Source: Pyrinomonadaceae bacterium (lineage in GTDB: Bacteria; Acidobacteriota; Blastocatellia; Pyrinomonadales; Pyrinomonadaceae). Taken from it: DNA of 32,410 nt. The notes under the pieces are model-generated. The model did not search any database. It was not told the origin of the DNA and saw only the letters and a list, made by a program, of their open reading frames with translations. Shown here piece by piece: positions 30,873-32,410 of the stretch. Every line of letters starts with the position of its first letter. The first letter of the stretch is position 1. Location: assembly GCA_013812905.1 (NCBI GenBank), contig JACCSP010000035.1, positions 1 to 32,410 of the forward strand. The letters are read 5' to 3'. The position numbers were made by a program, and so were the translations under genes.

Positions 30873-30971
30873 TTGTAGGGCGTAACTCCGTGTCCGTCCC
30901 CTGCCGAACCCAATCGTCAAGAGTGAGCTTCATGTGCGTCCGGAGGCCGACCCGGAGTTCCACCCTACAAC
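30873..30971. repeat. TGTAGGGC / GGAGTTCC imperfect palindrome
   Basis: TTGTAGGGCGTAACTCCGTG starting at 30874 faces CCCGGAGTTCCACCCTACAA ending at 30970, mostly complementary (TTGTAGGG with CCCTACAA, AACTCCG with CGGAGTT). Interior about 55 nt. It fills the gap between DUF420 and the HEAT gene, touches the DUF420 3' end, and creates a false N-terminal extension of the HEAT gene. Confidence 0.75.
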
Positions 30972-31399
30972 TGCGAAGGATAAATGCGATAGAGCATTAA
31001 GTACACAATCACTCCGGTCACCGAAACATAGAGCCACAGAGGTAAAGTCCATCGAGCTATCCTGCGGTGTCTGATGAAATCCCCACGGGCTGCGCGGCAG
31101 ACCGTAATTAAAACGAGAGGGACTATGATAATGGCCAGGATCACGTGAGTGATTAGAATTGCAAAGTAAAACGGTCGAACGATTCCCTGTCCCAGGAAAC
31201 GCGTATCGCCATGATAATAGTGATAAGTAATGTAGGAAATCAGGAAACACGTCGACGTTATGAGGGCCATAATCTGACAGTTTCGGTGCGCTCGAATGAA
31301 TCCGGCCCGAATAAAGCTGTAACCCGCTATCAAAAACAGGGCGCTCGTAGTATTCAAAAAGGCATTTAGATGAGGCAGGTAGGAAATGTATTCAGGCAT
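30965..31399 (-). CDS. DUF420 family membrane protein (YozB/CtaM-like)
   Basis: A 144-aa protein with four hydrophobic helices: HLNAFLNTTSALFLIAGYSF, CQIMALITSTCFLISYITYH, FYFAILITHVILAIIIVPLV and LPLWLYVSVTGVIVYLMLYR. Conserved DUF420 features are visible: HRNCQIMAL, the His pair in YITYHYYHGDTRFLGQG, ITHVILA and HRRIARWTLPLWLYVS. DUF420/CtaM proteins are needed for maturation of heme-copper oxidases in some bacteria, perhaps at heme or copper insertion. The downstream HEAT gene shares its strand; oxidase genes may lie beyond the window. No strong Shine-Dalgarno is visible. Confidence 0.88.
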   Translation of the reverse strand: MPEYISYLPHLNAFLNTTSALFLIAGYSFIRAGFIRAHRNCQIMALITSTCFLISYITYHYYHGDTRFLGQGIVRPFYFAILITHVILAIIIVPLVLITVCRAARGDFIRHRRIARWTLPLWLYVSVTGVIVYLMLYRIYPSQL

Positions 31400-31558
31400 T
31401 TAAGAAAACACTCTGCAAGGTTCGTGGCTCTGGCGACCTTCCAAACAACTGGCGGTCTGTAACAAAAGGCTTCGCTAGCGACTTCTCATTCACACCCTGC
31501 TTTAGCTGGGTGTCGAGAACATTCGGTAACCTTCTGAAGTGGGATAGAAACTGAGCGC

Positions 31559-32401
31559 ACTAGCACCTTAGGAAGAGAGTTTCCGTTTCCACTCTTTCGA
31601 TTGTGGAGCGGGTGCCTAGTTCTTCCATAGCTTTGTTTCCCAGAGCCGCCCGATGATCCCGGACGGTCGGATTTTCCGAGTCCGGTTCGAGGCCACCGCA
31701 TACACCATGCGTCTTCCGCCACCGAGTTGAGTTTAAGTCAATGGCCAACATACACTCAGCCCCACTGACGTTTACGCACAGCCTAGTAACTACTGTGGGT
31801 TACAGGTCGCTTCCGGCATGGCATCCGGCACCTGCCCACAATTCATTACACAGTGTGCCCAGAGGTCCTTTGCGCCAGAGAGGGTTAACTCCCCGCGTTG
31901 CTCTTACGACCTCATGTGCCAGTCCCAAAGCCTCTCCCCAGCTGTCGCTTTTCGCTCGCTGGGCAGTCCTTGCAGCTTGGACCATCCGCTGCTGGTCTTT
32001 GGGACCTTCCCGACGTTATGTGACGCGAACCTTTTCTTGGATGCTTGGACCCTTACCCCGGCTCTCTCGGTGGTGCCTGTACCCGTTTCTTCCCACTGAG
32101 CGGCGGCCTTCCCGCAACGGTTACACGGTCGGCAGTGCGGCGAAAACCCGTACAACGACTTCAGTACGGACCGTAATTTCGGGGCTGCAGTCATTTCTTA
32201 ATGTTCAGGCCTCCAAGTTTGCTTGCCACCCGGGTTGTTCCTACCGCTGGCGCTTTCGCCTTCAGGGCAGCTGTGACTTTTACTTCCGAGCACCGTGCGT
32301 GTCGTTACCTTCCCGCACGTCGGATATGCTAGCCGTCTGAATCGGGTAATTGACGGCAGGGGACTTGCACCCCATTAGATTCGCGACCTTGTCGGCCGCA
32401 T
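31559..32401 (-). mobile_element. Group II intron-like structured RNA, 5' part, no reverse transcriptase
   Basis: Reading the minus strand from 32401, ATGCG opens a hairpin GCGGCC-GACAA-GGUCGC (32399-32383). It needs a G-U pair possible only on this strand. A GGGG-UGCAAGU-CCCC hairpin follows (32373-32359). The GGUGCAAGUCC word, GGGAAGGTAACG (about 32312), GGCGAAAGCGCC (about 32250) and GGTGGCAAGCAAAC resemble domain I of bacterial group II introns. Further nested stems occur at the far end: ACTAGGCACC with GGTGCTAGT (31620-31559), enclosing TCCAC/GTGGA. No reverse transcriptase motifs and no recognisable domain V are seen. The 5' end would be AUGCG, not the usual GUGYG. Frames of up to 199 codons inside are not protein-like. 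The boundaries are uncertain, and 31400-31558 holds nothing else I recognise. Confidence 0.5.
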
Positions 32402-32410
32402 CCAACCGTT

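Follow-up and report, generated by a model that had tools for sequence, protein, structure and literature searches.

An ORF-less group II intron with a non-canonical domain V in a Pyrinomonadaceae draft genome and its relatives across bacterial phyla

The window analyzed here is an entire contig of 32,410 nucleotides (C345) from the draft genome of a Pyrinomonadaceae bacterium, which comprises 347 contigs and is 98% complete. Its right edge carries, on the minus strand, a group II intron without an open reading frame (ORF). We interpret it as a mobile ORF-less intron of a phylum-spanning lineage in which the AAC triad of domain V faces GA, guided to its target, spliced, and likely supplied with reverse transcriptase (RT) in trans, a reading to which we assign a probability of about 0.88. 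A sequence-only reading had already proposed an ORF-less group II intron-like RNA at this place, and this is supported by an Rfam match in domain I, pairing of exon-binding sites 1 and 3 (EBS1 and EBS3) with the exons, the presence of domains V and VI, and precise insertions for which empty sites exist. The parts of the element are as follows.

31539-32403, minus strand: complete ORF-less group II intron, 865 nt, from 5' GGATGCGG to CTATCCCAC 3'
32404-32410, minus strand: final 7 nt of the 5' exon, intron-binding site 1 (IBS1) AACGGTT, complement of EBS1, at the contig end
32199-32376, minus strand: domain I, match to RF02003 (group-II-D1D4-4), 53.4 bits (gathering score 49), E 1e-10
32170-32176, minus strand: probable EBS2 region, a family-level signal (alignment columns 267-271), the exon needed for a check being missing in the window copy
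32116-32122, minus strand: EBS1 AACCGTT, alignment column 331, perfect complement of IBS1
32053, minus strand: EBS3 (A), alignment column 431, pairing with 3' exon base +1 (T at 31538)
31900-31920, minus strand: J2/3 - domain III motif GGCACATGAGGTCGTAAGAGC, consensus GGCGCATGAGnnCGTAnnAGC in 44 elements
31655-31688, minus strand: domain V with AAC triad, GAACCGGACTCGGAAAATCCGACCGTCCGGGATC, 104 copies with compensatory changes in the outer pair and upper stem
31539-31650, minus strand: domain VI (5' limit approximate), putative branch A at 31545 (-7), ending in AC, from the alignment of 44 elements
31512-31538, minus strand: start of the 3' exon, TTCAGAAGG..., where the copies on C345, C119 and C27 diverge

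Domain V, missed by the sequence-only reading as well as by the standard model, is present at 31688-31655 in a non-canonical AAC form. It folds as N-A-A-CCGGAC-UCGG-GAAAU-CCGA-CC-GUCCGG-GA-U-N, a hairpin of ~34 nt with a 2-nt CC bulge and a GAAAN loop. AAC replaces AGC or CGC and the usual G.U pair gives way to an A facing GA, with the middle triad base opposite GA rather than U. To find relatives, 84,980 species were scanned once with the pattern ARCCGGANNNGGNAAANCCNNCCGTCCGGGAT; this returned 102 stretches with an AAC-type domain V from about a dozen phyla. The triad reads AAC in 103 of 104 copies, though the pattern permitted AGC; these copies are a selected sample, because the pattern fixes the facing GGGAT. 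A structure-based scan of the loci found 117 AAC/RAU hairpins, compared with 3 in reversed sequence, as well as AGC forms at L108 (facing GA) and, as two related forms, at L133 and L180 (facing AA). Covariation is seen in the outer pair, which alternates between G-C, C-G and A-U, and in the upper stem, where U-A, C-G and G-C are exchanged. The Rfam domain V model RF00029 recognized no AAC form in 19 loci, nor in the window element, for which the Rfam search gave no further match to any other domain V. A link between the G-to-A change in the triad and a change in J2/3 (CGC vs CGG) is suggestive, with exceptions in 4 of 44 AAC copies; by inspection, the J2/3 motif appears homologous to the usual CAGCAGAGGTCATAGTA. 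As a separate observation, the AGC-facing-AA domain V of L180 (G166:C334, near 2138 on the minus strand, in a locus fetched with RF02003) may be an intermediate between the canonical and AAC forms.

The Rfam search proposed in the sequence-only reading matched RF02003 in domain I. This is the sole Rfam match in the 32-kb window, with nothing else listed for the intron stretch up to E 5; the window's domain I matches at 53 bits, whereas the best matches in the phylum reach about 100 bits and often carry RT. The search for EBS1 was location-free: for every 6-mer of each element, the score with the 5' exon of that element was set beside the scores with the exons of other elements. One alignment column stands out for 5' exon pairing, with a mean excess of 7.45 vs <=1.8 elsewhere. 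EBS1 and IBS1 pair at all six positions (G.U counted) in 29 of 38 distinct combinations, and 189 of 228 pairs over these combinations are Watson-Crick, compared with a permuted mean of 64.5 (standard deviation 7.5, maximum 99) in 10,000 re-dealt exon sets. The EBS3 column complements exon base +1 in 95% of 44 elements (1.71 bits vs 0.75 for the next column). The EBS2 signal, ~55 nt upstream of EBS1, is weaker, with a mean excess of about 3 vs noise of about 1.6. Together, the EBS1, EBS3 and weaker EBS2 pairing signals characterize the element as an RNA-guided group II intron whose target logic is IIB-like.

The ends of the intron were set by 54 complete relatives, a tandem copy and empty sites. 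These relatives measure 805-981 nt, have 5' ends of GGAG type (GGAGC in 34, GGAGT in 13, GGTAG in 3, GGAAC in 2 and GGATG in 2), and end in AC in 53 cases and AT in one. The sequence-only reading had placed the element correctly, but its limits of 32401-31559 are superseded by 32403-31539, and the 5' end that it gave as AUGCG is GGAUGCG; the word GGGGUGCAAGUCCCC is genuine and conserved, as is the 5' stem GCGGCC/GGUCGC. In every case where an element's own domain I motif could be located, it lies ~680-800 nt from domain V. Branch A of domain VI was placed, partly by inspection, at -7 in 32 copies and at -8 in the UAUCC forms, a position which suggests that A 31545 is the branch site. The consensus fold of 44 copies contains 215 pairs, 92.6% of them standard and 128 with double-sided changes, compared with 35-45% and 49-66 when the pairing partners were slid as a control; because the fold was optimized on the same alignment, it supports each helix without proving it. 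Circularly permuted group II introns are ORF-less group II RNAs too, but circular permutation is ruled out here by the normal domain order, I ... V, VI.

By inspection, an 11-nt tetraloop receptor lies in the domain VI extension (TATGG at 31629-31625 and CCTAAG at 31572-31567). A motif AACTAGGAACCCG...CGAAAGAG...CGGAAACTCT around this receptor, common to the window's extension, was also seen in the RNAs of L027, L028 and L058, which are probably introns. The 3' 127 nt had been considered as a second RNA, given a motif that C142, C63 and L058 have in common with it, and are better read as the domain VI extension with an 11-nt receptor used elsewhere too.

The anatomy bears on whether the element could be a different large ribozyme that has merely borrowed a group II domain I. 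Such an RNA would fit the failure of the Rfam model to detect domain V and the deviating 5' end; however, EBS1, EBS3, the AY 3' end, the A at -7/-8, the J2/3-like motif and the 34-nt hairpin with its 2-nt bulge all occur in group II order, and we consider this explanation very improbable.

Empty sites from three settings show that insertion is precise and without target duplication. When the exons are joined, a textbook domain V spans the junction in 7 of 54 copies under a strict test, compared with 0.45 expected from re-paired exons. These insertions are found at L090 (Neobacillus cucumis), L146 (Cytobacillus), L157 (N. rhizosphaerae), L065, L084 (Mycobacterium MFM001), L154 and L067 (near the 3' edge), and three others (L064, L100 and L127) look alike by eye. 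The corresponding empty site is an intact domain V at L087, to which the exons of L090, once joined, are identical. Domain I of other group II introns houses at least ten more copies; for those in Niallia, Bacillus and other Neobacillus, the interrupted introns are of the D1D4-6 kind, and several of them have RT downstream. An empty domain I site matches at 95.9% over 218 nt, L090 holding the intact domain I. In another Neobacillus locus (L096), two copies stand head to tail. The exact insertions with a matching EBS1, the occupation of hairpins essential to other introns and the recent multiplication all fit an intron that would splice and reverse-splice, and it is probably self-splicing. Lodging in hairpins, dispersed repeats and domains I or V of presumed helper introns would be tolerated because the intron would splice out. 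A cascade of ORF-less introns was also observed at L133 (1-3350, minus strand), where an intron with an AGC/AAU domain V adjoins an ORF-less host intron with an AAC intron inside.

In the window's own genome, a DNA search found pieces of the intron, 98-99% identical, at the ends of four other contigs, with C185 and C271 each carrying a 5' part and C119 and C27 each a 3' part; fragments at contig ends are the pattern that an assembler leaves for a repeat present at about three places. The flanks diverge just before GGATGCGG on the 5' side and past CTATCCCACTT on the 3' side. The 5' exons of the sister copies are hairpins, AACCGTTTCAACGGTT and ACCCGTTTTAAGGGTT, and not introns. The C271 copy has, within hairpin AACCGTTTCAACGGTT, the same exon as the window's IBS1 end, while the visible 5' exon of the window copy amounts to 7 nt, the right edge being the contig end, and its flank beyond them is missing. 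Two further genomes of the genus contain a full-length copy 82% identical (G012) and a nearly full copy 78% identical; the most conserved block among these relatives is GAACCGGAnTCGGGAAATCCGACCGTCCGGGATC, in the domain V position. At G000:C316:7894-7977, an 85-nt piece of the window intron's domain IV region (96% identical) was also noticed in isolation, the rest being absent.

The lineage is found in Bacillota, Acidobacteriota, Desulfobacterota, Pseudomonadota, Planctomycetota, Actinomycetota, Chlamydiota, Spirochaetota and several candidate phyla, including the finished chromosomes of Neobacillus SuZ13, Neobacillus PS3-12 and Lentibacillus CBA3610. Exact domain V patterns had no matches in viral contigs, and a plasmid search gave two partial, weak matches. 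In Gracilibacillus massiliensis, a single host repeat, present in diverged versions, harbours 13 near-identical copies of the intron. RT genes, near-identical to one another, number 11 in this genome; the one that was read (L194) lies in a D1D4-6 intron with a canonical domain V, flanked by sequence resembling the host repeat of the ORF-less copies. This dispersed, diverged repeat of ~250 nt (CCGCTCCGGCTTGCCCACTTCCCTTTCC...GTGGATCTTCAGG...CCCACAGGAGTGGAAGTGG...CTCTACAA; L061, L074, L080, L105, L194 and others) is occupied by ORF-less introns at one position and, at a different one, by at least one RT intron, and has no Rfam name in L061.

The sequence-only reading had left the choice between a degenerate intron, a trans-mobilised intron and a different large structured RNA. 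Mobilisation in trans by a helper RT is likely, because G. massiliensis combines 13 near-identical copies with 11 near-identical RT genes, whereas the conservation of domain V, higher than in any other block over about a dozen phyla, makes degeneracy unlikely. Decay of an ordinary RT-encoding group II intron into an immobile, non-splicing one could account for the altered triad and 5' end and for broken copies in a draft genome, but hardly for an altered domain V conserved so widely, for the 13 near-identical copies in one genome or for EBS1 co-varying with the exons, and is scarcely credible.

The claim that the stretch is a protein-free, large structured RNA on the minus strand held up: its open frames of 96 and 199 amino acids have no Pfam match, and RT was found inside none of the 54 complete copies. 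A full-length RT-encoding relative, expected by the sequence-only reading in the same genome, was not seen there, and no RT-encoding member of the lineage was found. Neither an RT-encoding parent nor ORF remnants turned up among the 54 complete copies or 162 genomes of the class, remnants having been checked by tblastn with known RTs only. For the mechanism, we propose that the RNA finds its target with the 7 nt of EBS1, the single nucleotide of EBS3 and probably EBS2, would insert by reverse splicing, and would be removed from transcripts by splicing with the domain VI branch A. Since the intron has no RT, DNA copying would most likely depend on an RT that a different group II intron supplies within the cell. 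On balance, we also favour extending this to the whole lineage, as introns with an active site of AAC triad and purine-purine mismatch that never have their own RT and are satellites often homing into domain V or I of RT-encoding introns.

A helper may be unnecessary if the RNA is a hydrolytic, RT-independent ribozyme like HYER, cutting DNA itself and spreading by repair. HYERs reportedly belong to group II-C (Science, 2024). The II-C architecture, without EBS2 and about 0.6 kb long, does not fit copies of 805-981 nt with an EBS2 signal, of which the EBS2 part is the weaker. Like HYERs as described in PMC11403445, the lineage is a multi-copy group II ribozyme with RT in no copy and many copies per genome. 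By that description, on which the comparison with HYERs is based, they differ in being about 0.6 kb long, vs 0.8-0.98 kb with EBS2 and EBS3 signals here. EBS3, a probable EBS2 and domain VI with its presumed branch A are in place in the lineage, and RT genes are present in all four genomes searched through loci, which leaves the hydrolytic alternative unlikely.

Several points weigh against the interpretation as a trans-mobilised group II intron. The triad is neither AGC nor CGC, which the literature consulted treats as defining, and GGAG/GGAU stands at the 5' end in place of GUGYG. The fold statistics are partly circular, as they come from an optimized consensus. The window's genome has one intact RT intron, on C175 (462-aa RT), which is of another type, plus fragments, so that the helper is unclear; an RF02005 intron had no match in that genome, in a search that matched in no control genome either, so its absence is unproven. 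Canonical group II introns were observed in this genome on C243, C208, C87, C39 and C175, most of them cut by contig ends. These RF00029 matches were rejected as parents, having a canonical domain V and no blastn similarity to the window element.

The closest comparison is provided by the ORF-less TeI3 introns of Thermosynechococcus elongatus, for which trans mobilisation by a driver RT was demonstrated (PMC2882425). Those introns and twintrons, like the lineage described here, are ORF-less and multi-copy with good EBS/IBS matches, with identical inner introns in diverged hosts and nesting in RT introns or an insertion sequence (IS) element (PMC2882425). In contrast, the lineage here spans phyla, has no RT-bearing parent among the copies found, and is characterized by the AAC domain V and insertion into domain V or domain I. 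Nested group II introns that home into other group II introns are known in Methanosarcina acetivorans (PMC4424553, PMC2882425), but their target is intron ORFs according to the original title (PMC4649490), while here it is the catalytic hairpin of domain V and domain I.

Downstream of the intron, as the sequence-only reading had stated, lies a gene on the same strand, which starts 140 nt away.

30965-31399, minus strand: DUF420 gene, outside the intron (PF04238, E 1.2e-44)

REP-like palindromes with the core GCTAAAGC (CACCCAGCTAAAGCAGGGTG) were also noted near several insertion sites, namely in the window (31513-31490), C119, C185, C53 and G012.

We regard the lineage as a variant form of group II introns that is new and spans phyla, although single members or the class may have been described earlier. 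Group II introns and spliceosomal U6 have the AGC triad in common, and it is considered almost invariant. An active-site variant that is natural and widespread would make it possible to test what in the metal-binding core is essential. Surveys that rely on Rfam domain V or on RT genes would miss such introns, and a large survey of 2022 was built on Rfam models (PMC8919778); ORF-less bacterial introns may thus be far more common than thought. An intron targeting the catalytic hairpin of other introns would be a clean case of a satellite obliged to splice, thereby sparing its presumed helper.
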